In this document: piece after piece, positions 1,608 through 59,781 of the stretch
Layout of the letters: each line of letters opens with the position of its first letter
Position numbering within the stretch: position 1 is the stretch's first letter
Assembly (NCBI GenBank): GCA_945833885.1
Contig: CAMAFY010000001.1
Coordinates: forward strand, 62,001-126,000
Reading direction: 5' to 3'
Length of the DNA stretch: 64,000 nt
Source: an uncultured Bacteroidales bacterium
Lineage (GTDB): Bacteria; Bacteroidota; Bacteroidia; Bacteroidales; Bacteroidaceae
Made by a program: the position numbers and the translations under genes
The notes under the pieces: model-generated
Database searches by the model: none
What the model was told of the DNA's origin: nothing
Seen by the model: only the letters and a program-made list of their open reading frames with translations

Positions 1608-1695
1608 AACATCCGCACTTTCCATAGGAAAGTTCCGCATTTCCATGTCAAAACATCCGCACTTTCCTGTTAAAACATCCGTGCTTTTTTGTGGT
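1608..1695. repeat. 22-bp tandem array R1 (4 units), shared core AAAnnnCSGnnnTTT
   Basis: Four consecutive 22-bp units start at 1608, 1630, 1652 and 1674 with no indel. Each has the core AACATCCGCACTTT or a close variant and a variable spacer. The array lies in a 518-base gene-free stretch (1315-1832) between the tmRNA terminator and the end of folC, which converge. I see nothing else in that stretch. Seven other arrays in the window share this core (R3, R6, R7, R8, R10, R12, R15). Confidence 0.85.
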
Positions 1696-1832
1696 TTTCC
1701 CGATGCTTTGATTGAGAAGTGGAAAAAATTGATAATCAATCGGTTATTATGTTTTACCTGAATTTCTGCAAAAGGTTTGTTCCGTTGCGTTTCCTACCCT
1801 GTGTTTTGTCGGAACTTCCAGTTTCTGAATGC

Positions 1833-3161
1833 CTATAAATCCGTGTCGGAAAGCAGGTCGGCAACAACAAAACTGCTGCCGCCGATGTAGACGATGTCGT
1901 TGGCTTGCGCTTCTTTGTGTACGGTGTCGTATGCCTCTTTCACGCTGCCGCAGACCACACCGTGCAGACCATGCTCACGGGCAATGGCGGCAAGTTCCCC
2001 GGCAGGTAGGGCACGTCTGACGCTGGCATTGCAGAAATAGTATCGGGCATTGCGTGGCATCAGGTCCATAACTCCGCTGACGTCCTTGTCGTTCACCATA
2101 CCAAAGACGATGCGCAGACAAGGTTCCGCCCAACCGTTCTCCATGGCGTCGTGGTGTTTCTGCTGCACCAGTCGCTCCAGTTGTTGTACAATGTACTGCA
2201 GTCCTCCGACGTTGTGCCCCGTATCGCAGACCATGTACGGGCGGAGGCTCAGCACTTCCCACCGGCCGCGCAGCCCCGTCAGGCGGCAAACCGCCATGAA
2301 ACCGTCGCGGACATCGTCGTCGGTGAAGCGCAATCCCTCTTCTCTCAGGCATTTCAGCGCGGCAAGAATGGTGCGTGCGTTGTGTTCCTGGCAGTATCCG
2401 CCGAGTTCTCCGTGGATGAGTCCGTATGTTTTCGTCATGTAGTTGAAGCCGCCCGCCGCGTCAGGTTCGGCACTTTCAATCTCGTTCTCCGCCTCTGCCC
2501 ATACGATGGGTGCGGCGGTTTCCGCTGCGGCCTGTGCAAACACTGGACGTGTTTCCTCCGTGGTCTCACCGACAACAACCGGAACATTCGCCTTGATGAT
2601 GCCCGCCTTTTCGCTGGCGATGGCAGCAAGGGTGTGACCGAGGAATTGCTGATGGTCGAACGATATGTTGGTGATGACGCTTACGAGGGGCGTGATGATG
2701 TTCGTGCAGTCCAGACGTCCGCCCAGTCCGACCTCGATGACGGCGATGTCAACATGCTCGTCGGCGAAGTATTTAAACGCCATTGCCGTGGTGATTTCAA
2801 AGAAAGAAGGGTGGAGGGGTTCGAAGAAACCGCGCTCCTCGCGAACGAACTTCACGACATATTCCTCGGAAATCATACGGCCGTTCACGCGTATGCGCTC
2901 GCGGAAATCTACAAGATGCGGTGATGTGAAGAGCCCGACCTTATAACCGGCATGCTGCAAAACCGCGGCGATGGTGTGGGAACAGGAGCCTTTGCCGTTT
3001 GTGCCTGCTATATGGACGGTTTGGAAACGGCGGTGGGGATGTCCGAAATGCTCGTCCAGGATGCGGGTTGTCCCGAGGCCTTCCTTGTATGCTCCGGCAC
3101 CATTTTGCTGGAACAATGGTGTCGAATTGAAAAGATATTCTACTGTTTCTTGATAGTTCAT
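1833..3161 (-). CDS. folC: Bifunctional dihydrofolate synthase / folylpolyglutamate synthase
   Basis: Cytosolic Mur-ligase-family enzyme of 442 residues, usual for FolC. It makes dihydrofolate from dihydropteroate and glutamate and adds further glutamates to folates, using ATP. The P-loop GTNGKGS is at residues 53-59. The FTSPHL motif and the R-E-R-I-R-V-N-G segment follow, as in FolC. DTGHNVGG near residue 315 is the C-terminal ligase-domain motif. The start is supported by TAATTTTG on the minus strand at 3188-3195, about 27 bases upstream. The gene is transcribed alone, divergent from nagB. It serves the same folate pool used by thyA further along the window. Confidence 0.95.
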   Translation of the reverse strand: MNYQETVEYLFNSTPLFQQNGAGAYKEGLGTTRILDEHFGHPHRRFQTVHIAGTNGKGSCSHTIAAVLQHAGYKVGLFTSPHLVDFRERIRVNGRMISEEYVVKFVREERGFFEPLHPSFFEITTAMAFKYFADEHVDIAVIEVGLGGRLDCTNIITPLVSVITNISFDHQQFLGHTLAAIASEKAGIIKANVPVVVGETTEETRPVFAQAAAETAAPIVWAEAENEIESAEPDAAGGFNYMTKTYGLIHGELGGYCQEHNARTILAALKCLREEGLRFTDDDVRDGFMAVCRLTGLRGRWEVLSLRPYMVCDTGHNVGGLQYIVQQLERLVQQKHHDAMENGWAEPCLRIVFGMVNDKDVSGVMDLMPRNARYYFCNASVRRALPAGELAAIAREHGLHGVVCGSVKEAYDTVHKEAQANDIVYIGGSSFVVADLLSDTDL

Positions 3162-3187
3162 GGTTGAAAGTCTTGCATTATGCGGTG

Positions 3188-3195
3188 CAAAATTA
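3188..3195 (-). promoter_or_regulatory. -7 box (TAATTTTG) upstream of folC
   Basis: Minus-strand TAATTTTG about 27 bases before the folC ATG, fitting a short 5' leader. No clear TTTG at the expected -33 position. The remaining folC-nagB gap (3196-3477) shows no other feature. Confidence 0.5.
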
Positions 3196-3477
3196 CAACA
3201 AAAGGGGAGAATGTCGCGTGTAAGTTCGATGAAAAAGGGAAGTTCCCATACTTTTTTCTTTCCATATTTCCCCGCTGGAATAAGGTGTGGCAGCGGAGCG
3301 GGAACAGGAAATCCCGCACTTGGGGATGGTGGTCGCAGCGCTTCCTTTCGGCCTTATATTTACGGTTTCTCGCTGATGATGGTCAGTAAAGCGCCATAAA
3401 AAAGGTAGAAAGTAGATAAGCGGGGATGAAATTCTTGAAAAAACCGAGAAAATATGAAGTATGTACGAAAAAAGTTG

Positions 3478-3485
3478 TAACTTTG
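3478..3485 (+). promoter_or_regulatory. -7 box (TAACTTTG) upstream of nagB
   Basis: TAACTTTG fits TAnnTTTG. It would give a leader of about 115 bases before nagB. No convincing -33 TTTG. Confidence 0.45.
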
Positions 3486-3606
3486 TAGCGTGAAATTGTC
3501 TGCGGAAACCGGGAGTGCGTTTCGCATCCGTCCTCATGGCGTCCCGACGTCTTGTCCGCATCCTTTGAAAATCGAATAAACAATCACCATAAATCTATTA
3601 AAAACC

Positions 3607-4398
3607 ATGCGCGTAATTATCCAGCCTGACTACACCGCTCTTTCAAATTGGGCGGCAGAGTACGTCGCCAGTCGCATCAATGCGGCTAACCCGACTCCCG
3701 AGAAACCCTTCGTGTTGGGTTGTCCTACCGGTAGCAGTCCTCTCGGACTTTACAAGCACCTCATCGAACTTTATGAGGCAGGCAAGGTAAGTTTCGAGAA
3801 TGTTGTCACCTTCAATATGGACGAATATGTGGGACTTCCCGAGGATCATCCCGAGAGTTATCACAGTTTCATGTGGACCAATTTCTTCAGCCACATCAAT
3901 ATCAAGAAGGAAAACGTACACATCCTCAACGGAAATGCCGAGGATCTCGTTGCAGAGTGCGCTGCTTATGAGGCTGCCATCAAGGCTGCCGGTGGCATTG
4001 ACCTGTTCATGGGCGGTATCGGTCCCGATGGTCACATTGCCTTCAACGAACCTTTCTCCAGCCTTTCCAGCCGTACACGTCAGAAAAGCCTGACCACCGA
4101 CACTATTATTGCCAACAGCCGCTTCTTCGACAACGATGTCAACAAGGTGCCCAAGACGGCTCTTACCGTCGGTGTCGGCACGGTTCTCGACGCAAAGGAG
4201 GTAGTTATCGTATGCAATGGCCACAATAAGGCCCGCGCACTCCAGGCTGCCATCGAAGGACCTGTGACTCAGGTATGGACCATCTCCGCACTTCAGCAGC
4301 ACAATGGCGCCATCATCGTATGCGATGAGGCCGCTTGCGCTGAAATCAAGGTGGGAACTTACAAGTATTTCAAGGATATCGAGAAGGATAATCTCTGA
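3607..4398 (+). CDS. nagB: Glucosamine-6-phosphate deaminase
   Basis: Converts glucosamine 6-phosphate to fructose 6-phosphate and ammonia, feeding amino sugars into glycolysis; cytosolic. The 263 residues match the family length. The proton-relay aspartate is D72 in NMDEYVG. The catalytic loop [11 protein letters not shown] lies near residues 138-148 and supplies the second Asp, His and Glu. The phosphate-binding segment [10 protein letters not shown] follows the first strand, as in NagB. Translation starts at an ATG in an AT-rich context without a Shine-Dalgarno sequence, normal for this phylum. It is monocistronic, between its own promoter box and a terminator. No nagA or transporter is adjacent. 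Confidence 0.96.
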
Positions 4399-4413
4399 TT
4401 TTCCCTTTTAACC

Positions 4414-4463
4414 GCCACACAGAAGGCATAGCCGACATCCGGTGTTCCTGTCTTCTGTGTGGC
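4414..4463 (+). terminator. Terminator-like hairpin after nagB
   Basis: GCCACACAGAAG (4414-4425) pairs exactly with CTTCTGTGTGGC (4452-4463) around a 26-base loop. The following T run is short (GTCTTTCTC). Position 16 bases after the nagB stop supports a terminator. Confidence 0.65.
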
Positions 4464-4751
4464 GTCTTTCTCACCCCACTTCGCCCTTTCTTCCTGCTGC
4501 AGTCCCGATCTTCTTTCGCCAGGGTTTGGAACTGCCGGTTATTTATGTCCCTCCGCCCCTCATCCGTTATCGGGGGGCTTTCAACTACGGTTCCGGCAAA
4601 TCGTTGTCGGACCTTCACCAAAATTTAACGCGACGGGCGTAAAAGGCCCCTCATTTTTCTATTATAGATCCTGCAGAACCCGAAAGAATGATGAAAAAAC
4701 AATAGACATTGATGTATGGATTTCTGCGGACGGTAAGCGGAATGTTTGGAT

Positions 4752-4927
4752 TTTCCAACATGATGTTTACCGCTATTTATCATGGTATTCTGCATATATT
4801 GCAACAATATTCTGTTCATGTTACAACAGTATTTTGCATATATTGCAACAATATTCTGTTCATGTTACAACAGTATTTTGCATATATTGCAACAGCATTC
4901 TGCTCGTATGTCTGTAGCATTATGCAC
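4752..4927. repeat. 22-bp tandem array R2 (8 units), core ATATTGCAACAATAT
   Basis: Eight units in exact 22-base register, the first two degenerate. Two unit types alternate, so 4796-4839 and 4840-4883 are identical 44-bp copies. One type contains the perfect dyad ATATTG-CAA-CAATAT (15 bp) plus a 7-bp spacer, the same geometry as other arrays in the window but with different bases. The array lies after the nagB terminator and ends 45 bases before the start of the 1317-residue gene, so it is in or next to that gene's leader. The rest of 4464-4751 shows nothing I can name. Confidence 0.9.
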
Positions 4928-4972
4928 TTTAAAAGAAAACATTTTGTAAAACCACCATAAACATCCATCAAC

Positions 4973-7900
4973 ATGAAGCCTAAACAACTTGAAGAAAATA
5001 AACTTTCTGAGGAAATTATAGAACTTTTAGTGGTCGGTATAGACGATAAGAAGCAAAATTTCATTGTCATGTACGAGGGTGGCCGGTATACTTTGCCCAG
5101 AGAATCGGTGCAGCCTACCGACATATTACCTAAAAATTTAAGTTGTATTGTCTCAAAATACGTCAATGGTGATATAAGGATACAGCAAAATCTGGAACCA
5201 TTGATAGAACATTACCTGCCAAAGGGCAGTACGGCGGATTTTTTTGTCAAAAGCGGTTACGGGCTTGACGGCAGTGCTTCCTTTGAATTGCAGGATTGCC
5301 GGTATGGTTTCCACGCCTATCTCAAAAACGACAGGAACTATCAGTTCTTCAAAGGTCAGAAATTAAAGTGCCGTATAGAGGACATTACACGCAGGAGGCC
5401 CATTATCCGACTGTTGGAAGTGCAGAGTTCTGTGGCGAACAATGCGTTCTCCATCTCCGAAGACCACTTTCTTGAACTCATTGGAACCCACAATTGGGAC
5501 TGCCAAAGTCTGGCACATCTGATACTGACCAACGAGATTGATTCCGATTTCACCGATGATAGCCTCAATTGGCTTTTGGATGTGCTCAAGCGAACACCGC
5601 TCAACGAAGGTCAGAATCCCCTTGATATCCTTGCCGACATCCGCAGTTGCTGCCTGTTCCTTCTTGAGGATACCGACCTTCTGACCCGTATCGGACTACA
5701 GGAACAGCAGGTTCTCGATGAACGTTTCACCATACTTGTCGAACTCATCGACAATGTCCGTGAGGCCTGCAATTTGGGTTCTGAGAAGAAACGTAACGAA
5801 TTCGTCAACAACATCCTCTGCAAACTCCGTAAGTCAGGACACCTGTATCACCCCAAAAACGACTTCGGAATCCTGCGCGTTATCTTTGCCCTTAAGCCTG
5901 AAAGCATGACGGAACGCATGACGGACATCTTTGCTGTCCTGTGTTCACGTGAGATGATTTATTGGAAACAGGACACATTCCGCCGAGAGTTTGTCCGACT
6001 TCTCGAAACCTATATTCGGCACATCGACTCGAATATTAGCCAACTTACCAGTGCCGACCGCCGCATTGACTATGTCTTCAAAGCGCTTGCTTTGCAACTG
6101 ATTCTCCTTGATCGTGAGCGCGATACCGACCTTGTTGACATCAGACTTAACCATGCAATGTTCTATCGATACGCGTCGTATCGTAATCATTCCAGCGATC
6201 TTATATCCGCAGGATTCAAGAATATCTGCGGGCATCTGCAGGAACTTAATTTCAATCATGCCAGTGGCATCAACGACAATCTCCTACCTTTCCACATCAT
6301 CACGCTGAACGACTTCAACGATGTCGATGATGATATGGTCTATATCTACGAGACCCGCAACCAGCGGCTTCAGGCAAAGAACGGCAACATCAGCGTCAGC
6401 CTGAACACCGATGACGACACCCGTGATGTGCTTCCTGCGTCACTTCTTCCCTGGAACAACCTGCAAGTCCGACTTGAAAAGAAGCCTAAGACGGCCATTC
6501 AGGCGCAAAATTCCACCAGCATACGGCCCTATGCCACCATGTGGAGCGAAATCTTCAACACATTGTTCCCCACTGTTCCCGTGAAAAAGCCGGTAAAGGA
6601 GGTGAAACGTAAGCGTGAGGTGAGCGAAGGCAACGATGTTTTCATCATCGTCAAGGGCAGAACTGCACAGGATTCTTCGGTCTTTGAATTTGTCATTGAC
6701 GATCCCATCTTCGAGACTGCGGAAGGATGGATGCACATCAAGGAGGATGTTTCGGGATACTACGTCAATGCCACACCCGATACCTTCTGCGATTCCTTTG
6801 GAAAACCTTATCATCTGCTGGCGAAGGTCGACAGTATCGACATCGAAACCGGGCGTTGCCACTTCCGGATAATCGATATCCTCAAGAATTTTAACGAATG
6901 GTATAATTTCGATTCCGAGACAACTTTGTTCTGTTACGTGGGTGATATAAACAATCAAGGCTGTTTTGCCGTATCGGAGGACGGTATTCCCGTATTCGTT
7001 TCGCGGAAGGCGCCGGGCTTTGAGATGCTTAAAAAAGGCGACATCATCGAGGTTTCGGAACTCTATACTGAGGGATTCCCCCGTCTGCATGCCGCAAGTT
7101 TCCGTGTCACATCCCTGAATCACGACTTCAGTCTCCTTGATGCTTACCAACGCCTTATCGTACAGTATGCCGAGGGAAATTCCGATATTTACGAGGACGA
7201 CAAGGAGAGCCTTGAGGCGCAGGATGCCGATGATGGTGAGGTGAACATCATGATGGAGGCATCGCATGTACGCGAAATCATGCTCCTGATTGACCGCATT
7301 GCCACCATCTCCGATGACCATATCAAGGCCTACAACTACCTTGCAATGGCACGCGTCTTTGCGAAGATGTTGCAGAAAACCGAGCAGGAACGCTACTACT
7401 ACGGTCAGATGAAAATGATTGAATTCCTCAATGAATTTGAGGTGAACGACCGTAACAACGACGAGGAACTCAGCCGTTTCCACAACGATCACAGCGAGTT
7501 CTTCTCCAATTATCCCAGCCTTTACACAGGATTCCGCCAACTTGAATTCCTCAGTTATCTGGGACAACCCCAGAATAATGCCATTCTATGGGGAGCGCAG
7601 AACACAGAAACGAGTGAACTTCTGCGGAAGATTGCCAAACTGGTGTTGTCCTACAACTTCCTGATGGCTGAGGGATTGGAGAAGGAGGCCGAGGAAGCCC
7701 AGCAGCGTGTAAAGGCATTGCTGAACCTGAAGAACCGACATAGCAACCTCAAAGAGTACGGCAGGGAGGGACAAACCAAGGAGTTCAAGACCTCAATCCT
7801 CTTTCCTCCGTCGTCCGAAAACCCGCGTCCGCAGATGGAAACCATCCTGCGCGTCATCAATTCCTTCCTGAATTCGCACGAAGGTGGCGAACTTTACGTC

Positions 7901-8926: not shown

Positions 8927-8993
8927 AGTCAGTCTGCGGTCTTGCAATCAAATGACAGATTTTCTGTAACAAGCCACGAAGCATCGCATAAAA

Positions 8994-9081
8994 AACCTCG
9001 GTACATTCCTTCATAAACCTCGGTACATTCCTTCATAAACCTCGGAACTTTCTTTCGCAAACTTCCGATGTATTTCCGAGA
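8994..9081. repeat. 22-bp tandem array R3 (4 units), degenerate AAAnnnCSGnnnTTT core
   Basis: Units start at 8994, 9016, 9038 and 9060. The first two are identical (AACCTCGGTACATTCC plus spacer); the third reads AACCTCGGAACTTTC and the fourth AACTTCCGATG. It begins 68 bases after the stop of the 1317-residue gene and before a terminator at 9151, so it would be in that gene's 3' untranslated region. Confidence 0.85.
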
Positions 9082-12689: not shown

Positions 12690-12930
12690 GAAATCCATGT
12701 CATTTGGCCAAATGTTTTTCTCTTTTGACGAATGATTGTTCGTCTTTTAGCAAAGGTTTCTCTGTCTTTAGACCAATATATTCCAGTCTATTCGCAACGC
12801 CTTCTTTGTCTTTAGACAAATATATTTCAGTCTATTCGCAACTCCTTCTTTGTCTTTAGACAAATATATCTCCGCTTTTTGACAAAACCATTTTGCCTTA
12901 TGACCAAGAAATCTTATTCATCTGCCAAAT
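12679..12930. repeat. 22-bp tandem array R4 (about 11-12 units), core TTTnGnCAAA
   Basis: Units start at 12679, 12701, 12723, 12745 (this one 20 bp), 12765, 12787, 12809, 12831, 12853, 12875, 12897 and a partial at 12919. Typical cores are TTTGGCCAAA, TTTTGACGAA, TTTAGACAAA and TTTTTGACAAA. Two unit types alternate to give near-identical 44-bp copies at 12765-12808, 12809-12852. The first unit overlaps the ribH stop codon, and the array fills the gap to the next gene at 12959. Confidence 0.9.
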
Positions 12931-13637: not shown

Positions 13638-13849
13638 CAGTAACAAACGCTGTAAAAATCATCAGCAAACGCTATATAAAGCAGTAATAAATACTGTAAA
13701 AATCATCAGCAAGCGCTGTAAAAATCATCAGCAAACGCTATATAAAGCAGTAATAAATACTGTAAAAATCATCAGCAAGCGCTGTAAAAATCATCAGCAA
13801 CGCTATATAAAGCAGCAATAAATACTGTATAAAGCAGTAACAATAAGGG
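13638..13849. repeat. 22-bp tandem array R5 (about 10 units), core CAGTAATAAATACTG
   Basis: Units start at 13638, 13660, 13682, 13704, 13726, 13748, 13770, 13792 (21 bp), 13813 and 13835 (partial). One unit type has the dyad CAGTA-n-TACTG in a 15-bp core, with spacer TAAAAAT. Three unit types repeat in order, so 13660-13725 and 13726-13791 are identical 66-bp copies. The array ends eight bases before the thyA ATG, so it must be inside or overlap the thyA promoter or leader. Confidence 0.92.
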
Positions 13850-13857: not shown

Positions 13858-14655
13858 ATGAAACAATACCTCGATCTTCTCGATCATATCCTACGCGACG
13901 GTGTGGAAAAGACCGACCGTACAGGCACAGGAACCCGTAGTATTTTCGGAAATCAGATGCGTTTCGACCTTGCAGACGGCTTTCCTCTGCTGACAACTAA
14001 GAAACTTCACCTGAAAAGTATCATACATGAATTGCTCTGGTTCCTTGCCGGCGATACGAATGTGCGGTATTTACAGGAACACGGAGTGAGCATTTGGGAT
14101 GAATGGGCTGACCCTCTGACCGGTGATCTCGGGCCTGTCTATGGTCATCAGTGGCGTTCCTGGCCTGCAAAGGACGGCAAAACCATTGACCAGATAGCGC
14201 AAGTTGTCGACCTGATTCGCAACCATCCTGATAGCCGACGCATGATGGTGACGGCATGGAATCCCGCAGAAGTCGATGAAATGGCCTTGCCTCCTTGCCA
14301 TTGTCTCTTCCAGTTCTATGTTGCCGATGGCCGTCTTTCTCTCCAACTTTACCAACGTTCTGCCGACACTTTCCTGGGTGTACCCTTCAATATTGCGTCC
14401 TATGCGCTTCTTTTGATGATGATGGCGCAGGTATGTGGGCTGAAACCAGGGGAATTTATCCATACAACTGGTGATACTCACCTCTATCTCAACCACTTGG
14501 AACAGGCACGTTTACAACTGACTCGAACGCCAAGAGCATTGCCGAAAATGGTCATTAACCCAGAAGTAAAGGATATTTTCAGTTTCAAATTCGAGGACTT
14601 TACCCTTGAGGACTACAATCCTTATCCCCATATCAAGGCCGCAGTATCGGTCTGA
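13858..14655 (+). CDS. thyA: Thymidylate synthase
   Basis: Methylates dUMP to dTMP using methylene-tetrahydrofolate; cytosolic homodimer. The 265 residues match the E. coli-type enzyme. Motifs: [16 protein letters not shown] (phosphate-binding Arg loop), [20 protein letters not shown], the catalytic cysteine in [32 protein letters not shown] and HLYLNHLEQ. The C-terminus ends IKAAVSV, close to the usual IKAPVAV. The ATG follows directly on repeat array R5 with no Shine-Dalgarno sequence. folA, the common partner gene, is not next to it. Confidence 0.97.
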
Positions 14656-17003: not shown

Positions 17004-17004
17004 T

Positions 17005-17994: not shown

Positions 17995-18082
17995 AAAGTG
18001 CGGAACTTTATGGCATAAAGTGCGGAACTTTCCGATGAAAAATGCCGATGTTTTTCATTAAAAGTGCCGTACTTTTTTTTAC
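17995..18082. repeat. 22-bp tandem array R6 (4 units), core AAAGTGCGGAACTTT
   Basis: Units start at 17995, 18017, 18039 and 18061. Two carry AAAGTGCGGAACTTT, in which AAAGT and ACTTT are exact complements; the third is AAAATGCCGATGTTT and the fourth AAAGTGCCGTACTTT. It lies in the 968-base gap between the divergent HD operon and panD. Apart from two promoter boxes and this array I see nothing in that gap. Confidence 0.88.
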
Positions 18083-25316: not shown

Positions 25317-25404
25317 AAACTACGGAGATTTACGAAAGAAACCTCCGATGTTTGTGGTCGAAACCTCCGATGTTTGTGGTCGAAAGTTCCGATGTTTCCG
25401 ATAC
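25317..25404. repeat. 22-bp tandem array R7 (4 units), core AAACCTCCGATGTTT
   Basis: Units start at 25317, 25339, 25361 and 25383. Units two and three are identical. In AAACCTCCGATGTTT the arms are AAAC and GTTT, a compensated version of AAAGT/ACTTT in arrays R6, R8 and R15. The array lies between the stop of the 1264-residue gene and the start of the 1101-residue gene. Upstream at about 25204-25236 CCGTAG/GCGTAG recurs at 11 and 21 bases, possibly a decayed extension. Confidence 0.88.
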
Positions 25405-29639: not shown

Positions 29640-29749
29640 GAAGCATCCGTATTCCCTCTTGGAAAGTACGGCACTTTCCAGGATAAACCACGACACTTTC
29701 TATGATAATTCACGGCACTTTCTGCTGTAAAGTACGGCACTTTCCCCTA
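29640..29749. repeat. 22-bp tandem array R8 (5 units), core AAAGTACGGCACTTT
   Basis: Units start at 29640, 29662, 29684, 29706 and 29728 without indels. Two have AAAGTACGGCACTTT, with arms AAAGT/ACTTT complementary. It sits between the terminator of the periplasmic TPR gene and the promoter of the 1264-residue gene. Confidence 0.88.
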
Positions 29750-31845: not shown

Positions 31846-31874
31846 CCGAAAAATAGCGCGTTGCCTTTTTGGAC

Positions 31875-31962
31875 GTTGTTCGGAGGATTGCGTGTGCTTG
31901 CGCCGATAAAATCCGGATGTTGTTCGGAGGATTGCGTATGCTTTCGCCGATAAAATTACGTA
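31875..31962. repeat. 22-bp tandem array R9 (4 units as two 44-bp copies)
   Basis: Units start at 31875, 31897, 31919 and 31941. Units one and three (GTTGTTCGGAGGATTGCG plus four bases) differ at one base. Units two and four share CGCCGATAAAAT. It lies in the gap between the divergent TPR gene and thioredoxin lipoprotein gene. Confidence 0.85.
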
Positions 31963-35803: not shown

Positions 35804-35979
35804 AAACCTCCGGACTTTCTCAAGGAAACCTCCGGACTTTCTCATGGAAACATCCGGACTTTCTTATGAAAACCTCCGGACTTCCTTATGAAAACCTCCG
35901 GACTTTCTCGTGGAAACATTTGAACTTTATCTCACAATCATCAGATGTTTTTTATGTAAACCTCCGCACCTTTTATCAT
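35804..35979. repeat. 22-bp tandem array R10 (8 units), core AAACCTCCGGACTTT
   Basis: Units start at 35804, 35826, 35848, 35870, 35892, 35914, 35936 and 35958: 176 bases in perfect 22-base register. Units one to five are nearly identical; six to eight are decayed. The array lies between the DUF4494 terminator and the terminator of the dehydrogenase gene on the other strand, so it appears to be outside both transcripts. Confidence 0.93.
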
Positions 35980-45268: not shown

Positions 45269-45356
45269 ATCCGATTCTCTGAAAAATGTCATGTAAATGG
45301 CAATAAATCATTGGGATTACATCCTGTTCAGGTGTCTTTTTCTCCAATGTTTTTTT

Positions 45357-45489
45357 GCCGATTCCTTATTGTCGTTTTTGCCGATTCCTTATTGTCGTTT
45401 TGCCGATTCCTTATTGTCGTTTTGCCGATTCCCTATTGCCGTTTTGTTGATCCCTTATTGTCGTTTTGTTGATCCCCTATTATTTTTTT
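45357..45489. repeat. 22-bp tandem array R11 (6 units), GCCGATTCCTTATTGTCG type
   Basis: Units start at 45357 (23 bp), 45380, 45402, 45424, 45446 and 45468. Units one to three are identical apart from one extra T in the first; later ones drift to GTTGATCCCTTATTG. It lies between the stop of korC and the start of the acyltransferase gene, both on the minus strand. Confidence 0.92.
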
Positions 45490-45550
45490 CTTGGAATACT
45501 GGGATGAATCTTAAAATGCAGGGATTTTTCCTAATGATAATTTTGACTCT

Positions 45551-49031: not shown

Positions 49032-49051
49032 ATTTATTCATCTTATCGCGG

Positions 49052-51757: not shown

Positions 51758-51845
51758 AAAGTGCGGAGGTTTGAGGCGGAAACTTCGGAACTTTCTAATG
51801 CGAAGTGCGGAGGTTTTATGGTGAAAGTGCGGAACTTTTCAAGGC
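51758..51845. repeat. 22-bp tandem array R12 (4 units), core AAAGTGCGGAGGTTT
   Basis: Units start at 51758, 51780, 51802 and 51824. Cores alternate between AAAGTGCGGAGGTTT and AAACTTCGGAACTTT types. It lies in a 628-base gap between convergent tdh and yaaA. I see no clear terminator in that gap. Confidence 0.88.
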
Positions 51846-52762: not shown

Positions 52763-52789
52763 GATGCTTTTCCTTGAAAGTGTGGCTGA

Positions 52790-53413
52790 TTATCGGATAA
52801 AATTCATTGCATTCCAGGCTTCGCGTTGAGGCTGCTGTGGTGCTTCGATGCCATGAATCTTCTTTAACAGCCACGACATGTTGGTGGCCAGTGTGCGCAT
52901 GGTCTGCATTCCTTCCACGTCTTGCGCGGCCTCGCCTTCATTGCGTCCGTAGGCAAGATTCCAATATTGCGATGTGACGATGGGCATGTTCATCATTTGG
53001 AAAGGCATCAACAGGGTTTGGTAGGTTGCGGTTGCGCCACCACGGCGGCAAACCGTCACGGCTGCGGCAGGTTTTCCTACGAAGTTCGCACCGCCTGCAA
53101 AAAGCATTCGTTGCTGCAGACACAACAGTTGGCCCGAGGGCTGACCGTAGTATACCGGTGAGGCGACGATAACAGCGTCGCAGTTTTCCATCTTTTCAAT
53201 GACGGTATTCGTGATATCGTCGTTAAAAACGCAACGGCTGTTGCCGTTAGCCTTGCATTTTCCGCAGGCAATGCAGCCCCTGACGGGCTTTTGTCCAATC
53301 CAAAGGATTTCGCTTTCAATGTTTTCGGTGGTCAGTTGTTGCGAGATTTCTTCAAGAGCGGTGTGGGTGTTGCCGTTTTTGCGCGGACTTCCGTTGATAA
53401 GTAAAACCTTCAT
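52790..53413 (-). CDS. NADPH-dependent FMN reductase / flavodoxin-fold protein
   Basis: A 207-residue flavodoxin-like protein starting MKVLLINGSPRKNGNTHTAL at 53413. GSPRKNGNTHT is the FMN-phosphate loop, VRGCIACGKCKANGNSRC carries a CxxCxxC-like set seen in iron-sulfur-flavoprotein-like reductases, and VIVASPVYYGQPSGQLLCL is the flavin-binding loop. Such enzymes reduce flavins, quinones or nitro compounds with NAD(P)H. Substrate unknown. It lies on the same strand as yaaA downstream (27 bases), so both may belong to one stress transcript. Confidence 0.88.
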   Translation of the reverse strand: MKVLLINGSPRKNGNTHTALEEISQQLTTENIESEILWIGQKPVRGCIACGKCKANGNSRCVFNDDITNTVIEKMENCDAVIVASPVYYGQPSGQLLCLQQRMLFAGGANFVGKPAAAVTVCRRGGATATYQTLLMPFQMMNMPIVTSQYWNLAYGRNEGEAAQDVEGMQTMRTLATNMSWLLKKIHGIEAPQQPQREAWNAMNFIR

Positions 53414-53509
53414 AGGTGTCTTTGTTTGGTGTGTTGGCACGACGTTGTGGGAGATGGTCGGCATGGAGCCCCGACCTTTCACCCTGCCGTATTGGTGTTG
53501 TGGTGTTTG

Positions 53510-53908
53510 TCAGGCAATGCCTAAGAGTTCGATTTCAAAAATCAATGTGGAACCGCCCGGTATTCCGGGTTGCGAAAACTTGCCGTATCCGCATTCGGCA
53601 GGGATGTATACTTCCCATTTGTCGCCGATACACATGTTCCGCAGGGCAATTCCCCAGCCTTCAATCAGGTCGGAGAGACGGCAGGCCAAAGGTACTCCAC
53701 CGCGACTGCTGTCGAATTTCTTGCCGTTGATGGTCTTTCCTGTATAATGTGCGGTGATGATGCTTCGCGGATGGGGATGAATGCCGTCGTTACGCCCTTT
53801 CTTCAGGACTTTGTAGCAGACACCTTTGAACAGATGTGTCACGCCTTCTTCGTTTTGTTTCGCAGCAAGCCAGTCCTTGTTGGCCTGTGTATATGCTTGT
53901 TTGTTCAT
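53510..53908 (-). CDS. FKBP-type peptidyl-prolyl isomerase
   Basis: A 132-residue FKBP protein. FKBP motifs: ITAHYTGKTINGKKFDSS, LIEGWGIALRNMCIGDKWEV (W at the active site), IPAECGYGKFSQPGIPGGST and LIFEIELLGI. It speeds proline isomerisation during folding. The start MNKQAYTQANKDWLA at 53908 is preferred, since a TAATTTTG box at 53987-53994 lies just before an earlier ATG at 53983, placing that ATG at or before the likely transcription start. No signal peptide, so cytosolic. Confidence 0.9.
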   Translation of the reverse strand: MNKQAYTQANKDWLAAKQNEEGVTHLFKGVCYKVLKKGRNDGIHPHPRSIITAHYTGKTINGKKFDSSRGGVPLACRLSDLIEGWGIALRNMCIGDKWEVYIPAECGYGKFSQPGIPGGSTLIFEIELLGIA

Positions 53909-53986
53909 GGGTGCGGATATGTTTTGTTGAACGATGATGTTTTTGTTTTGGATGTCTTGATACGCGGAATCCGTATCCTCCATTTG

Positions 53987-54018
53987 CAAAATTACGGAAA
54001 AACATCGGAGTCGGCAAG
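53987..54018 (-). promoter_or_regulatory. Promoter of the FKBP gene
   Basis: Minus-strand TAATTTTG at 53987-53994 with CTTG at 54015-54018, 20 bases upstream. It decides the downstream FKBP start. Confidence 0.55.
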
Positions 54019-54104
54019 CATACGCCCTGACGATGTCGCATAAACAGCGTGGAGAATGTCGCAAATGAGGATTCGTTGTGCCGTATTTCCGGAATCGGAT
54101 GTCA

Positions 54105-54140
54105 AAAAATCCCCATTATCGCTGCAATAGGATAATGGGG
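54105..54140 (-). terminator. Terminator of sdaA
   Basis: CCCCATTATC (54111-54120) pairs perfectly with GATAATGGGG (54131-54140). On the minus strand six Ts follow. Array R13 lies between the sdaA stop and this terminator, so it would be inside the sdaA 3' untranslated region. Confidence 0.9.
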
Positions 54141-54267
54141 AGAATGTGGATAAACCGTAGGGTAGTGTATGGATGAAGGCCTTGCGGTTATGCTTGTTTC
54201 TTGTGGATTTTTCTGTATGATAATGCGTACGCTTTGTAAATCCCGTCAATACGCTTTGTGGTTTGCT

Positions 54268-54398
54268 GATGCCTGACAGATTATTTGCCGATTTCTGACG
54301 GATTATTTACCGATGCCTGACGGCGCATTTACTGATGCTTGGCGGTTATTTACCGATTTTTGACAGCGCATTTACTGATGCTTGGCGGACATTCACTT
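54268..54398. repeat. 22-bp tandem array R13 (6 units), GATGCCTGACGGC type
   Basis: Units start at 54268, 54290, 54312, 54334 (21 bp), 54355 and 54377. Cores vary around GATnnCTGACGG. The last unit overlaps the sdaA stop codon at 54393-54395. The array is upstream of the sdaA terminator on the transcribed strand, so it should be transcribed. Confidence 0.9.
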
Positions 54399-55598
54399 GC
54401 GTTCTTTGCCGAGCATGGCGAGACCACCTTCTGATGTTTCGCGGTAGAGAGAGGGCAGGTCGCGTCCGGTTTTTCCCATCACGGTTACCGCTTTGTCGTA
54501 GGGTATGCGGTGACTTCCTTCGGCAAAGGTGGCGTAAATGTTGGCGTCGAGGGCACGACCTGCCGCATGGGCATTGCGCTCGATGCAGGGAATCTGTACC
54601 AATCCGCAGATGGGGTCGCACGTCATTCCCAAGTGATGCTCCAGACCCATCTCGGCTGCGTACTCTGTAGCACGGACTCCACCACCGAAACTGTAGTTCG
54701 CTGCGGCGGCAGCCATGGCACATGCTACGCCAACTTCCGCTTGGCATCCTGCCTCTGCCCCGGAAATGCTGGCAAGAGTCTTGGCAACGTTACCCACAAT
54801 TCCCGCTGTGGCGAGCGCATGCAGGGTACGTTGGCGCGGAACGTTGCGACTTTTTGAGATATGATACAGCACTCCGGGTACGACACCACAACTTCCGCAA
54901 GTGGGAGCCGTGACGATTTTGCCTCCCGATGCGTTCTCTTCGCTTACGGCAAGCGCGTAAGAGAATACAAGACCACGGCTTTGGAGGTTGGAACCATAGC
55001 CGAGTGCCTTGATATAGTATCGGGGCGCCTTGCGTTGAAGATTGAGGCCTCCGGGTAGAACACCCTCGGTTTCAAGACCGCGTTCCACGGATGCTTTCAT
55101 CACATTCCAAACTTCATCAAGGTAATCCCAAATCTCCGGCCCTTCGCAGACGTCAACGTAGTTCCAATAGTGCATGCCTCGTTCCTCGCACCATTTCATG
55201 ATGTCGGTGAGATGCTCCAATTCATATACGTCGGGAGTGTCCTGTTCCGTCGTGCCTTCTTCGGCAAGTGCGCCTCCACCAACGGAGTAAACGGTCCAGG
55301 GGGCGGCAGGATTTCCGTCGGAATCCAACACTTCGAATTTCATACCGTTGGGATGAAAGGGCAGAATGATTTCGGGATGCCACACGACTTCCGTACGTTC
55401 TGCACCGAGAACTTCAAGAATGGCGGCGTCGGTAAGGTGTCCTTTTCCTGTGGATGCAAGACTTCCGTAAAGTGTGACACGGAAACGTGGGGCGTCGGAA
55501 TGGAGTTCGAGATAGCGGTTTGCCGCGGTTCGGGGTCCCATGGTGTGCGAACTGCTCGGACCGTATCCGATGCGGAAGAGTTCTTTAAGGGATTTCAT
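54393..55598 (-). CDS. sdaA: L-serine ammonia-lyase, single-chain iron-sulfur type
   Basis: Splits serine to pyruvate and ammonia using a [4Fe-4S] cluster; 401 residues, the single-chain fused beta-alpha form. The N-terminal beta domain has IGYGPSSSHTMGPRTAANRY, VTLYGSLASTGKGHLTDAA and FHPNGMKFEVLD. The alpha domain has the cluster-binding Cys in VTAPTCGSCGVVPGVLYH, and AGCQAEVGVACAMAAAA and TCDPICGLVQIPCIERNAHA follow. It is monocistronic with its own terminator after array R13. Confidence 0.95.
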   Translation of the reverse strand: MKSLKELFRIGYGPSSSHTMGPRTAANRYLELHSDAPRFRVTLYGSLASTGKGHLTDAAILEVLGAERTEVVWHPEIILPFHPNGMKFEVLDSDGNPAAPWTVYSVGGGALAEEGTTEQDTPDVYELEHLTDIMKWCEERGMHYWNYVDVCEGPEIWDYLDEVWNVMKASVERGLETEGVLPGGLNLQRKAPRYYIKALGYGSNLQSRGLVFSYALAVSEENASGGKIVTAPTCGSCGVVPGVLYHISKSRNVPRQRTLHALATAGIVGNVAKTLASISGAEAGCQAEVGVACAMAAAAANYSFGGGVRATEYAAEMGLEHHLGMTCDPICGLVQIPCIERNAHAAGRALDANIYATFAEGSHRIPYDKAVTVMGKTGRDLPSLYRETSEGGLAMLGKERK

Positions 55599-55681
55599 AG
55601 GGTGTTCCTTGGTGTATTTTTATTAGAAAAAGGTGTGGACGGCCTTTTATTGTCCGTAGTATTGGATGGTGTATGTTGCGT

Positions 55682-57688
55682 TCAATGCTCCTTGATGTAG
55701 CCTTTTCGATATGCGGTCAGCAGACGGTTGAGGTCCTCTATCTGCAGTTTCATTTCCGCTCCGCGGTCAGTTTCCGCCACAAGTATGCGGTGGTCACTGC
55801 GTGTGATGATTTGTTTTGTGGAGATAATGTCCGTACCTCGGGCCACAGCATCCGCTCTTGAGGTGAAAGGTTCGTGGGCAGCGAGGTAGAAACCTTTGGA
55901 ATGATAGACAAGCGAATAGCCTGCAATGCCGGTGGTATGGTGGTATGCTTCGGCAAAACCTCCGTCAATCACGAGCAAACGTCCGTCAGCCTTCTGCGGA
56001 TTCTCGCCTCTTGACGCATGAACAGGCACGTGTCCGTTGATGATATACCGTTGTGGGCCGTTCACTTCGAAGTGGTCGAGGATGCCATCTACGACCGTTG
56101 CATTGTCGCGGAGCAGGTAATAGTGGCCTTTAGGTTCCTCGTGCGTCTTCTTGTCTTCAATGAAATAGCGTTCAAAGGTCGCCATTTTTCCTTTGTCGAA
56201 CAAAGGACTGTCGGGACCACTCCAAAGATAGGTGAAGAAATCTCGGGCTATATGACGTTCATCTGCGGTCGCCGCCTCGTCGTATGCCGTACGTACAATC
56301 TGTTCTACTCGGTCCATTAGGCTTCTTCCGCAGAGTTGCTCGCCAAAAATGCTGACCTTCTTCAGACTGCCATCGGCATTCAGGGGAATGGATGCGTGGA
56401 AAAGGAGGTTGCCGTTTGTGATTTTGTACATCGAACCATGGGAGAGTATGAATTCGATATGCCGTTGCAGACGCTCGCTCATGCGGAAACTCCGGCAGAG
56501 ACTTTCCATCAACGTGGCCTCTTCTTCGGTCAAACGGCACGGATCTGCGGGATTTATGGTCGGAAAGTTCGTGTCGAGGAGCGGATAATCGGTATCTCCG
56601 ATGCGAATAGTTCCGTTTTCAAAATTACAACATCCGAGCAAATCGCGGTCACTCATGTTCCATTCAGGGTATTTCTTCACGAGTTGTCCGAGCAACTTGA
56701 ACTCTATGATGGCGATTGCTTTGTGCATTTTTGCGTCAAGCAGGCGTTGTTTCTTCGCAGGTTTCCCTTCTGGACGCAGATAGTGCGGATGAAAGACGGT
56801 ACAATCATCGTTTGCGTAGGTTTCAAGTGCAAAGGTTGCCAATGGAACAAGGTTGATACCGTAGCCATCTTCCAGCACGGGTGAGTTGCCATAACGCAAA
56901 GAAAGGCGTAGGACAGTGGCGATACAACTGATGTTTCCTGCGGTAGCACCCATCCAAAGAATGTCGTGGTTTCCCCATTGGATATCGATATGATGGTGGT
57001 TGCAAAGTTGGTCCATTATGATGTGGGCACCGGGACCACGGTCAAAGATATCTCCGAGGATGTGAAGTCGTTCTATGGCAAGACGCTGGATGACATTGCA
57101 GATGGCGACGATGAAATGGTCGGCACGTCGGGTCTCGATGATCGCCTGAATGATTGCCTCGTAATAGGCATGCTTGTTCGTATCCTCCGTACTTTCGTGC
57201 ATAAGTTCCTCAATTATGTACGCATACTCCTCAGGAAGGCTCTTACGAACTTTGGATCGCGTATATTTTAATGAGAAGTTTCGGCAGATAAGTACAAGGT
57301 TATAGAGCGTCCGATGGTAGAAACTATCATCAAGTTCGCACTGTCTGTGAAGAAGTTCGAGTTTCTGTTCGGGGTAATATATAAGTGAACAGAACTCATG
57401 TTGCTGACTTTCGCTCAAAGGCTCCACGCCTTTTGGGCGCAAAGGTCCGTCAACGGAAAAGATATCGGTGACTCTTCTCTTGATGCGTCCGGAAGCATTT
57501 CGCAAAACGTGCAGGAAAGCCTCATGCTCACCGTGGAGGTCTGCAACAAAATGTTCCGTAGGTTTCGGTAGATTGAGAATGGCCTTCAGGTTGATGATTT
57601 CCGTGGTGACAGCGGGTATGTTGGGAAATTCGCGTGCCAACAGTTGAAGGTAGCGAAGATCATCCTTGACGGTTTCAGTACGTTTCAT
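55682..57688 (-). CDS. fbp: Fructose-1,6-bisphosphatase class III
   Basis: Gluconeogenic phosphatase of the firmicute/Bacteroidota class III, 668 residues as expected. It is a metallophosphoesterase: HFVADLHGEHEAFLHVLRN (first Asp, His), ILGDIFDRGPGAHIIMDQL (Asp, Asp), IQWGNHDILWMGA (Asn, His), and INGHVPVHASRGENPQKADG with VIDGGFAEAYH close the site. Cytosolic. Array R14 lies just upstream of its start. It is followed 83 bases later by the next gene on the same strand (sdaA), but distance suggests separate transcription. Confidence 0.95.
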   Translation of the reverse strand: MKRTETVKDDLRYLQLLAREFPNIPAVTTEIINLKAILNLPKPTEHFVADLHGEHEAFLHVLRNASGRIKRRVTDIFSVDGPLRPKGVEPLSESQQHEFCSLIYYPEQKLELLHRQCELDDSFYHRTLYNLVLICRNFSLKYTRSKVRKSLPEEYAYIIEELMHESTEDTNKHAYYEAIIQAIIETRRADHFIVAICNVIQRLAIERLHILGDIFDRGPGAHIIMDQLCNHHHIDIQWGNHDILWMGATAGNISCIATVLRLSLRYGNSPVLEDGYGINLVPLATFALETYANDDCTVFHPHYLRPEGKPAKKQRLLDAKMHKAIAIIEFKLLGQLVKKYPEWNMSDRDLLGCCNFENGTIRIGDTDYPLLDTNFPTINPADPCRLTEEEATLMESLCRSFRMSERLQRHIEFILSHGSMYKITNGNLLFHASIPLNADGSLKKVSIFGEQLCGRSLMDRVEQIVRTAYDEAATADERHIARDFFTYLWSGPDSPLFDKGKMATFERYFIEDKKTHEEPKGHYYLLRDNATVVDGILDHFEVNGPQRYIINGHVPVHASRGENPQKADGRLLVIDGGFAEAYHHTTGIAGYSLVYHSKGFYLAAHEPFTSRADAVARGTDIISTKQIITRSDHRILVAETDRGAEMKLQIEDLNRLLTAYRKGYIKEH

Positions 57689-57766
57689 GTTAAGATTGAT
57701 GATAGTTGGAGGCTAAATGTTGCGGTAACATTTAGTGAAAAGGAAGGAAGGGTTTGGGATTGTGTT

Positions 57767-57898
57767 ATCCGTTTTACGGAAATTGACTTCCGTTTTCGGG
57801 TAGTTGATTTTCGTTTTCCGGATATTTGTCATCTTTTTCCGAGATATTTGTTATCCGCTTTCCGGATATTTGTCATCCGTTTCCCGGTAATTGACGTC
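57767..57898. repeat. 22-bp tandem array R14 (6 units), core ATCCGNTTNCCGGAT
   Basis: Units start at 57767, 57789, 57811, 57833, 57855 and 57877. The fifth spans a perfect 5+5+5 dyad, ATCCG-CTTTC-CGGAT, with a 7-bp spacer; the first has ATCCGT-TTT-ACGGAA. It lies between the start of fbp and the stop of trxB on the minus strand. Confidence 0.9.
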
Positions 57899-58004
57899 GG
57901 TAAAGTCAGCAAAGTGAAAGTGACTTTCGGACTTTTCCCGTTTCCTTCATGGAAGTCCTGTCGGTATGACTGCGCATACTCAGCAGGACTTTTTGTACAA
58001 GGGG

Positions 58005-58943
58005 TTAAAGACCTTCGGCCTGCAGATAGCGTTCGGCCTCCATTGCGGCCTTGCATCCCGATGCTGCCGCTACGATGGCCTGGCGATAGTGGGGGTCGGC
58101 AACGTCGCCGGCTGCATAGACACCGGGGATATTCGTGCGGGGCGTCGGACCATCGGTGATGATATAGCCGGTTTCGTCGAGGTCAAGTTGGCCACGGAAC
58201 AGTTCAGAGTTCGGACGATGACCGATGGCCAGGAAGAATCCGTCGATGGCAATGTCAAACTTTTCTTCATCAGCCTCGCCCTTACGGCGTACGAGATGTG
58301 CGCCTTCTACACCGTCTTCACCAAAGAGTCCCAGCGTATTGCACTCAAAAAGGACTTCGATCTTCTCGTTATTGAACACTCTATCCTGCATGGCTTTTGA
58401 TGCTCGCAGGTAGTTTTTGCGGACAATCAGGTACACTTTTTTTGCCAAACCTGCGAGGTATGTGGCCTCTTCGCAGGCAGTGTCGCCTCCACCTACAACG
58501 GCTACGGTACGTTTACGGTAGAAAAATCCGTCACAAGTGGCGCATGCGCTCACGCCTTGTCCGCGATATTTCTCCTCATCTGCAAGACCCAGATACTTGG
58601 CGCTCGCACCAGTGGCAATGATAAGTGTGTGTGTCTGTACGGTAGTATCGTCATCGAAGGTGAGGACAAACGGATGTTTCGACAGGTCGGCTTTGACACA
58701 TACGGCGCCACGTACTTCTGTTCCAAAGCGTTCTGCCTGACGTTTGAGGTCATCCATCATTTCATTGGCATCCACACCTTCGGGATATCCGGGGAAATTT
58801 TCAATTTCTGTCGTCTGGGTAAGTTGGCCTCCGGGCTGAAGTCCTTCGTAAACAACTGGGTTAAGACCGGCGCGTCCGGCGTAGATTGCCGCAGTATAGC
58901 CTGCAGGACCGCTGCCAAGAATGAGGGTTCGGAGTGTTTCCAT
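58005..58943 (-). CDS. trxB: Thioredoxin reductase
   Basis: A 312-residue FAD/NADPH enzyme that reduces thioredoxin. FAD loop GSGPAGYTAAIYAGRAGLNP at the N-terminus, GGQLTQTTEIENFPGYPEGV, the redox-active CATC pair in VSACATCDGFFYRKR near residue 135, the NADPH loop VAVVGGGDTACEEATYLAGL and the C-terminal GVYAAGDVADPHYRQAIVAA are all in place. Cytosolic. The LolA-like gene upstream lies 53 bases away on the same strand, so they may be one operon. Confidence 0.96.
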   Translation of the reverse strand: METLRTLILGSGPAGYTAAIYAGRAGLNPVVYEGLQPGGQLTQTTEIENFPGYPEGVDANEMMDDLKRQAERFGTEVRGAVCVKADLSKHPFVLTFDDDTTVQTHTLIIATGASAKYLGLADEEKYRGQGVSACATCDGFFYRKRTVAVVGGGDTACEEATYLAGLAKKVYLIVRKNYLRASKAMQDRVFNNEKIEVLFECNTLGLFGEDGVEGAHLVRRKGEADEEKFDIAIDGFFLAIGHRPNSELFRGQLDLDETGYIITDGPTPRTNIPGVYAAGDVADPHYRQAIVAAASGCKAAMEAERYLQAEGL

Positions 58944-58996
58944 ATTGTGGAATGATTGCTTTTATTTTGATAGGTTATAATAATCTATGATGTGTT

Positions 58997-59593
58997 TTAC
59001 CGCATGTCAATGATGTTGACACCGGGATAATCTTTTGGATTGAAGGCGAAAGATAAGGGATTCTTTTGGCCTAACTGTGTGAAAGAACGGACTGTAATGT
59101 TGGTCCACGCCTTTCCTGAACGAAATTTTATAGTCTTTGGCTTTGATGTCTTCGGATTGATGTAGATGTACATCTCCTGAATACTCTGTTTTTTTGACGT
59201 TGCAATGAGATGGATTTCCTGATTTCCATTAACTGTCTTCATGGACATCTTGTAGCCTTTCTTGTAGAGATTGATGAAGTTCATCGGGTTCATCTCCGCA
59301 ATTTCCTTGGCGGTGGGAGTGATGACATTGACCTCGCCTGAGCCATTCACCATACTCCATTCTGTTTTACCGTCAAACCAGATGTTGGCTTCCGGACTTT
59401 TGAGTGTAAAACGGTTGTTCTGGGTGATGAGTGTTCCCGATGAAGTGCCTTCTTTGCTCTTGGCCGTGAATTCTATTTTTACGGCACCTTTGCTGCATAG
59501 TGCCGCAGTCTTGTCTAAAACGCTCTTCGCTGTCTGCGCGGAAAGCAGGATGCACGATATCGAAGTGAGGAAGAGCAGAATAAGTCTTTTCAT
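58997..59593 (-). CDS. LolA-like outer-membrane lipoprotein carrier protein
   Basis: A 198-residue exported protein starting MKRLILLFLTSISCILLSAQ at 59593 with a signal peptide. The mature part has the LolA-like fold features VLDKTAALCSKGAVKIEFTA, SGTLITQNNRFTLKSPEANI and WFDGKTEWSMVNGSGEVNVI, with NPMNFINLYKKGYKMSM in place of the last strands. LolA carries lipoproteins across the periplasm; in Bacteroidota many LolA-like proteins have unproven roles. It precedes trxB by 53 bases. Confidence 0.88.
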   Translation of the reverse strand: MKRLILLFLTSISCILLSAQTAKSVLDKTAALCSKGAVKIEFTAKSKEGTSSGTLITQNNRFTLKSPEANIWFDGKTEWSMVNGSGEVNVITPTAKEIAEMNPMNFINLYKKGYKMSMKTVNGNQEIHLIATSKKQSIQEMYIYINPKTSKPKTIKFRSGKAWTNITVRSFTQLGQKNPLSFAFNPKDYPGVNIIDMR

Positions 59594-59693
59594 TGTATTA
59601 TCTGTTTTTGACGGATGCTGGAACGCCGCCTTACCGGTATGTTGGTAGGATGCTGTTGGACGTGGCATTTTTAATGCTTGGACATCGGCGGAA

Positions 59694-59781
59694 AAAGTGC
59701 GGCAGTTCGTGATAAAAAGTACGGAACTTTATCATTAAAAGTGCGGAACTTCCGGGTGAAAATTGCGGCAGTTTTCCAGAC
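59694..59781. repeat. 22-bp tandem array R15 (4 units), core AAAGTGCGGAACTTT
   Basis: Units start at 59694, 59716, 59738 and 59760. Cores: AAAGTGCGGCAGTTC, AAAGTACGGAACTTT, AAAGTGCGGAACTTC and AAATTGCGGCAGTTT. It lies in the 575-base gap between lolA-like start and ftsK stop (both minus). The rest of that gap shows no gene I can support. Confidence 0.88.

Follow-up and report, generated by a model that had tools for sequence, protein, structure and literature searches.

Why should fifteen tandem arrays that differ from one another in sequence share a single period of 22 bp? The question is raised by a stretch of 64,000 nucleotides from the genome of an uncultured Bacteroidales bacterium (the window; C1:62001-126000 of genome G000, which comprises 3.11 Mb in 89 contigs). 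A first examination made from the letters of the window (the sequence-only reading) had placed the arrays, R1 to R15, between genes and proposed that a constraint fixes their unit length, namely same-face binding at two turns of the helix, a repeated RNA element, or a copying mechanism that measures length. What that reading overlooked is that about half of the arrays belong to one family (class A), which occurs mostly in fours and is evenly spaced along the chromosome. Of the three options same-face binding is favored, the cores and their spacing being kept while the spacer is free; the RNA element and the copying mechanism are not.

The shared 22-bp period

Genes were called with a simple hexamer gene finder, and these rough calls define coding and intergenic DNA throughout; the ends of arrays in the window were placed by eye. 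The G000 sample joins the window to a further 400 kb of that genome (464 kb; spacing coordinates span 466 kb), and its intergenic DNA was scanned for self-matches at lags of 6-90 against dinucleotide shuffles. For 13 of the 15 arrays Tandem Repeats Finder (TRF) reports periods of 22, 44, 66, 43 or 65 (one row at R14 gives 21); R6 (17995) and R12 (51758) have no TRF row, yet are plain by inspection and in the lag scan, and the remaining TRF rows in the window, outside the arrays, have periods of 8, 12 and 13 only. The shared period is thereby confirmed at all fifteen arrays, as is their position outside genes, 13 having no overlap with the gene calls and the other two overlapping by 11 and 7 bases.

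Across the sample, intergenic DNA matches itself at lag 22 with an identity of 0.317, versus 0.264 in the shuffles. Intergenic local repeats number 40 at lag 22, 34 at lag 44, 14 at lag 66 and 9 at lag 88, and no other lag between 6 and 90 has more than 6 (6 at lag 21, 4 at lag 23); at lag 22 there are none in shuffles and none in coding DNA. The excess over shuffled intergenic sequence, on which the sequence-only reading had let its claim depend, is thus present, and the claim is not refuted. Besides lag 22, the intergenic DNA of the sample shows a damped self-match ripple of ~11 bp that suggests helically phased tracts. The further claim that units differ strongly between loci applies to seven arrays (class B, described at the end) and fails for the other eight (R1, R3, R6, R7, R8, R10, R12 and R15), which share the class A core.

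Anatomy of the class A elements

The class A unit is a 15-bp near-palindrome, AAA(GT, CA or CC)nC(G/C)Gn(AC, TG or GG)TTT, followed by seven bases with no consensus. With at most one mismatch this pattern has 718 strand-wise matches in G000 versus 16 for a reversed control (in strand-wise counts a near-palindromic site may score on both strands). A weight matrix finds 449 class A sites in the sample versus 129 in reversed sequence, and 265 of the 449 are intergenic, intergenic DNA amounting to 20% of bases. Phase is strict: neighboring intergenic sites less than 150 bp apart are separated by exactly 22 bp in 129 of 150 pairs, 35 of these 129 being in opposite orientation.

The units come predominantly in fours. 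Clusters have exactly four sites in 25 of 45 cases at the first threshold, and strictly phased clusters have exactly four units in 29 of 44 (extension score 4 or 6) or 27 of 44 (score 5). For four-unit runs at threshold 5, median site scores are 18.7-19.7 inside the run and -9 and -12 one phase step outside, where they are below 5 by construction but far lower than that. The 11 clusters with more than four units have near-duplicate neighbors (median best identity 0.86 versus 0.68), as if recently expanded. Class A is not an open-ended satellite.

Twenty-four elements, picked from the exactly-four clusters, align without gaps over 81 columns. Pairwise identity between loci (chance 0.26) is 0.90 at nine contact positions per core and 0.73 over the cores, compared with 0.29 in the spacers; in the flanks it is 0.32 over the nearest 14 bases and 0.27 at distances of 15-100 bp. 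The identity of the cores is partly ascertained, since they were found by the matrix, a limit that does not extend to the finding of spacers at chance level within a strict 22-bp phase. Within arrays the pattern is similar, in that adjacent same-orientation units (94 pairs) are 0.83-0.99 identical at the AAA, CGG and TTT positions and 0.36-0.46 identical in the spacer. Each locus preserves its four dyads and the phase between them, and hardly anything more. With spacers at chance between loci, the length-measuring copier also lacks support for this main class. A larger conserved element around the tetrads was considered and rejected, the excess of information in the flanks being weak (0.148 versus 0.101 bits, 25 clusters) and identity there being at chance.

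Placement on the chromosome

After class A clusters less than 600 bp apart were merged (45 to 44), and with single-site clusters left out of gap counts, the G000 sample has 42 gaps of 3.0-18.8 kb between clusters (median 9.4 kb), with a coefficient of variation (CV) of 0.39. Four null models give CVs of 0.80-0.91 (0.86 for length-weighted random intergenic regions; 0.91, 0.84 and 0.80 when regions no shorter than 200, 300 and 400 bp are drawn uniformly), and under each of them none of 5000 draws is as even as the observed clusters. The other arrays of the sample are uneven (CV 1.9, 28 arrays). For the other G000 contigs the genome-wide profile search scored 150 of 3058 candidates, and the site lists are incomplete; among the matches listed there are 59 gaps, none below 3 kb (null 23%) and 3% below 5 kb (null 36%).

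Elements of relatives, described below, also keep apart. In G015 none of the 41 gaps between exact cores among the matches listed is below 6.4 kb (an exponential distribution would put 22% below 5 kb), and in G073 the 44 elements among the matches listed leave 41 gaps, of which the smallest is 6.6 kb (P 0.005). Sampled 20-kb windows of G073 contain 14 gaps over three families, none below 3.7 kb (P 0.008 for the minimum), including 8 between families, none below 3.77 kb. Placement is thus non-random along the chromosome, as would be expected of sites of chromosome architecture.

Extrapolation from 44 clusters in 464 kb gives about 300 class A elements in G000. Their sites occur in all gene orientations, roughly tracking intergenic length, and are scarce within 100 bp upstream of gene starts (25 versus ~46 expected). 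The intergenic regions that bear clusters are long (median 777 bp versus 204). Four regions with four or more sites in G000 could be compared with their orthologues: they measure 435-1120 bp in G000 versus 11-263 bp between protein matches in congeners, the extra DNA amounting to 304 to 857 bp; a fifth region, with two sites, measures 914 versus 743 bp, and regions without sites are often also somewhat longer in G000. R15 lies in an intergenic region of 575 bp; in eight congeners the corresponding interval, measured between protein matches, is 11-152 bp. The elements thus came in together with additional DNA that the G000 lineage gained, or are located within such DNA.

Relatives and other palindrome families

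The sequence of class A is nearly confined to G000: exact single cores number 176 there, and none of 40 relatives has more than one. A few arrays are present in the sister species G065, where the core is related but richer in AAACCT, and no neighboring gene pair matched the G000 sample that would give orthologous tetrads in G065. The only other organism in a contig scan for class A was Bacteroidales Md513_bin63, with two loci of four units; its FtsK matches at 60% over the C-terminal part, no closer than other families of the order. Within those other families no four-unit array was found in 87 kb from five genomes, a negative that so little DNA does not make firm.

Arrays were surveyed at periods 10-40 in 17 sampled genomes, G000 included and G006 excluded (14.7 kb, one contig all N). 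Intergenic arrays of period 20-23 number 92 versus 33 of any other period, some of the lag-21 arrays of congeners being possibly coding repeats overlooked by the gene finder. Several relatives have palindromes of their own in this layout. Family a of G073 (GTTTG-N7-CAAAC plus four bases, period 21) has exactly four units in 11 of 12 clusters and a spacing of exactly 21 in 34 of 35 cases, and its full four-core pattern matches 90 times per strand (control 0); family b of the same genome consists of interleaved TCACGA/TCGTGA arrays of period 22. G047 carries ATTCG-N8-CGAAT at period 22, all three clusters being of four; G015 and G017 carry TCCAT-N3-ATGGA at period 21, with 161 strand-wise matches at no more than one mismatch in G015; G013 has further palindromes, and G012 two loci of two units. 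Sequence is thus specific to the lineage and the layout constant.

In G015 the dyads lie inside a non-coding element of ~345 bp, of which 15 copies aligned from 480 kb have a mean column identity of 69%, with few indels and one 21-bp insertion. A coding function was rejected, as 84 of 90 copy-frames contain a stop. Pairwise counts over these copies (L120:6250-6620 and 14 others) give 4577 complement substitutions (A-T, C-G), 1948 other transversions and 4184 transitions, an excess that resembles repeated strand flipping of short tracts. On contigs C1, C5, C10 and C12 of G015 no exact TCCATCCCATGGA is found among the matches listed, and neighboring contigs have about one per 15 kb; C1 contains other arrays, and its tetranucleotide profile differs slightly, as region-specific dialects or a mixed bin would produce.

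Satellites of other kinds were also seen. In G073 a 23-bp satellite (L163:7018-7366) of ~15 near-identical units with CCTTATAGGA has the period of the published BrickBuilt repeats discussed below and a motif in common with a 22-bp family of that genome, and congener loci L056, L044 and L072 have intergenic satellites of 8, 14, 16 and 24 bp that are not of the four-unit kind.

Recognition as double-stranded DNA or as RNA

Left and right half-sites of class A draw on a common vocabulary (AAAGT, AAACAT, AAACCT and others), and in 98 distinct units no covariation between them was detected (chi-square p 0.16-1). The half-sites thus combine independently, as they would under a symmetric dimer that reads each half separately and would not in a hairpin. 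Compensatory base pairs, as expected of a structured RNA, were not found in the tests on G000, G015 and G073: RNAalifold predicts 0 consensus pairs in the 24 aligned G000 elements; among 28 distinct cores of G073 the innermost variable pair (6-12) shows complementarity at a frequency of 0.29 versus 0.51 expected; and in G015 the covariation term is unfavorable, with two-sided change in 4 of 50 predicted pairs. Rfam has no match in the window except transfer-messenger RNA (tmRNA). The absence of consensus pairs and of half-site covariation speaks against the repeated RNA element among the options first offered, and the tetrad is very probably a double-stranded site for several dimers.

Proposed explanation and alternatives

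The explanation preferred here, which we hold with about even confidence, is that class A elements are chromosome-wide composite binding sites, four dimers each, of an architectural kind. Each dyad would be occupied by a dimeric DNA-binding protein, with centers 22 bp (G000) or 21 bp (some families of relatives) apart, equal to two helix turns; the four dimers, lying on one face of ~81 bp of DNA, might act jointly to stack, to wrap or bend the DNA, or to bridge it to another element; and the elements may serve as anchors or boundaries of chromosomal loops or of supercoil domains. Selection acting at each copy is probable. A role in loops or supercoil domains is proposed from the ~10-kb recurrence together with the scarcity near gene starts, and such an architectural role seems to us possible, if slightly more open to doubt than to belief. 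More tentatively, the elements might belong to a system of a new type for organizing bacterial chromosomes, in which each genome has several paralogous dimers with their own palindrome dialects, stacked four to a tetrad and setting loops of ~7-15 kb, the dialects being replaced between species while the geometry and the spacing rule are kept.

A number of results weigh against this explanation. The number four is not universal: 15-17 of the 44 G000 clusters are not four-unit; the G065 arrays have 3 to 6 units; 4 of 44 family a elements among the matches listed in G073 exceed four; and clusters of four make up 6 of 18 in G073 family b (by a 12-bp matrix), 2 of 4 in G017, 1 of 13 in G013 (by matrix) and 2 of 19 in G015, where 15 of 19 instead have three clear cores and a degenerate fourth. 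A dyad test on consensus units is significant in 4 of 41 G000 arrays and overall in 20 of 92 arrays of period 20-23 versus 4 of 33 of other periods, and the cores of class A, being matrix-found (449 matches versus 129 reversed), owe part of their identity to ascertainment. By lag detection arrays of period 20-23 are present in 11 of 17 genomes and absent from 6 (among these G065, which does have some); absence, or decay below detection, is common among relatives. On the other G000 contigs, among the matches listed, the CV is 0.85 versus 0.98 (P 0.10), a high value because sites missing from the lists make long gaps. Sites between convergent genes are in mild excess (51 versus 36 expected), and the location of elements in intergenic DNA absent from relatives also fits insertion. 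Finally, no binding protein was found among the three families compared: of 17 genomes, 16 carry 1-3 copies of Lrp/AsnC whether they have arrays or not; ParB occurs once in each of 10 genomes; and counts of HU-HIG do not track arrays.

Some details of these protein families are recorded here in their own right. The recognition helix of the resident Lrp looks conserved in translations (about half of loci), with no paralogue varying with site sequence. Phased arrays lie within ~600 bp of an Lrp/AsnC gene in three congeners (L138:929-1004, L141:2249-2303 and L132:673-745), possibly by chance. The whole genome of G073 has 30 HU-HIG (PF18291) matches; nine further genomes from the genus have 3-12.

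The main rival, which we consider unlikely, is that tetrads are the cores of small non-autonomous mobile elements, with dyads that bind a transposition protein and with target immunity and near-saturation giving the spacing. It would account for the intergenic DNA gained in G000 at the four orthologous regions, for the G015 element in its 15 aligned copies per 480 kb and for the restriction of families to lineages, and BrickBuilt in Porphyromonas gingivalis is described as a miniature inverted-repeat transposable element with 23-nt repeats (PMC4596501). A mobile element would not, however, be expected to have spacers and flanks at chance while its dyads are kept, a pattern in which each G000 copy seems selected; the gained DNA varies from 304 to 857 bp; no terminal inverted repeats are seen by eye in the G015 alignment; IMG/VR viral contigs contain 0 exact tandem pairs for three cores; and the unrelated families of G073 also keep apart from one another, unlike what family-specific immunity would give.

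That the arrays are operators through which one or several transcription regulators govern neighboring genes is improbable for class A, which is depleted near starts, lies in all gene orientations and is evenly spaced at an extrapolated ~300 copies, although cooperative regulators typically use phased dimer sites and three class B arrays (R2, R4 and R5) lie 67, 86 and 14 bp before gene starts. Ordinary minisatellites made by replication slippage are very hard to credit for class A, for slippage predicts neither a mode of four, nor chance-level spacers beside kept cores, nor even spacing; class B and the over-long class A arrays, with near-identical units that are sometimes organized at 44 or 66 bp, are what it would produce. 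A structured RNA or single-stranded hairpin element, to which the palindromic units and the short tracts that seem to flip repeatedly in the G015 element might point, can be set aside with similar assurance, given the 0 consensus pairs in G000, the unfavorable covariation in G015, the independent half-sites and an Rfam result in the window limited to tmRNA.

Relation to known systems

Octamers of Lrp/AsnC (feast/famine) proteins bind phased palindromes, and the layout of the tetrad is what four dimers would produce on short dyads spaced by about two turns; the resident Lrp genes, however, do not track the arrays. The matS sites of MatP, Noc sites and parS are dispersed chromosomal dyads bound by architecture proteins, and are typically single sites of conserved sequence, whereas the sequence of the tetrad changes between congeners and its layout stays. 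Plasmid iterons are tandem protein sites of ~22 bp; the tetrads differ in being chromosomal and dispersed. Bacterial interspersed mosaic elements (BIMEs) and REP sequences are typically associated with a RAYT (Y1) transposase gene linked to them and with hairpins of the REP type.

The nearest published counterpart found in the order is BrickBuilt, which, in the part of its description drawn on, resembles the tetrads as an intergenic tandem repeat of Bacteroidales with a period of about two helix turns and a conserved and a variable half (PMC4596501). The same part gives a period of 23, 1 to 22.8 units and 19 copies in one strain, with a leader and a tail that bear IS5-like terminal repeats, reports the element from P. 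gingivalis and P. gulae, and mentions 22-nt tandem repeats in P. gingivalis W83 without locations (PMC4596501). It describes no fixed number of four and no even spacing (PMC4596501), and the tetrads have a period of 22 or 21 bp. In place of 23-nt units in widely variable number, the mode is four in G000 and in G073 family a, and three plus a weak one in G015. Terminal inverted repeats are likewise not seen: identity in G000 is at chance 15-100 bp away, with no strong flank column beyond ~30 bp, and the ends of the G015 element are not, by eye, inverted repeats of each other. BrickBuilt and the tetrads also differ in their dispersal.

The BIMEs of Escherichia coli are comparable as hundreds of intergenic palindromic elements proposed to be barriers to the diffusion of supercoils (PMC6907758), although the portion of that source drawn on describes no phased four-dyad layout or even spacing; the comparison is by description, not by unit sequence. 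The same portion places topological domains at 10-400 kb, names BIMEs as candidate barriers, and states that it is still to be established what the barriers between supercoil domains in E. coli are and that their placement looks random (PMC6907758). The ~10-kb scale of the tetrads corresponds to the lower end of that range.

Among titles and abstract openings of the open-access literature, no description of four-dyad, evenly spaced elements was found. The tetrad would accordingly appear new in form, and its proposed function is a reading of sequence. If that reading is correct, elements defined by sequence and recurring evenly at 10-kb intervals would offer a directly testable barrier or anchor, domain maps would become readable from sequence in uncultured species, and the families would represent a case of fast turnover of recognition sequence with fixed geometry.

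Other features of the window

The seven class B arrays have locus-specific units in variable and larger number, often with a higher-order organization of 44 or 66 bp (Table 1). Similarity over the whole unit, which marks minisatellites made by slippage, is present in several of them and absent from class A. Class B looks like local sequence amplified by slippage, and no strong claim is made for it.

Table 1. Arrays of the window, with positions numbered from its first base
Array	Description	Positions	Strand
R1	class A tetrad, four 15-bp dyads at 22 bp	1607..1687	-
R2	class B, 22/44-bp units, 67 bp upstream of gene start 4973	4785..4905	
R3	class A tetrad	8993..9073	-
R4	class B, 44-bp higher-order units with TTTGTCTTTAGACAAA, 86 bp upstream of gene call	12742..12872	
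R5	class B, ~three 66-bp higher-order units, ends 14 bp upstream of gene start 13858	13638..13843	
R6	class A tetrad, site orientation ++--	17995..18075	+
R7	class A tetrad	25317..25397	-
R8	class A tetrad	29663..29743	+
R9	class B, two 44-bp units	31871..31956	
R10	class A, five good units (to 35906) then degenerate; near-identical neighbors, longer than four	35804..35972	-
R11	class B, ~six 22-bp units	45353..45493	
R12	class A tetrad	51758..51838	+
R13	class B	54262..54388	
R14	class B	57767..57895	
R15	class A tetrad	59694..59774	+

R11 falls within the single 16-kb gap between class A elements in the window, and the end of R5 is close to where the ribosome-binding region of the gene at 13858 would be expected. 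The tmRNA lies at 854-1256 (112 bits by Rfam, with no ARAGORN call), and R1 follows ~350 bp downstream of it.

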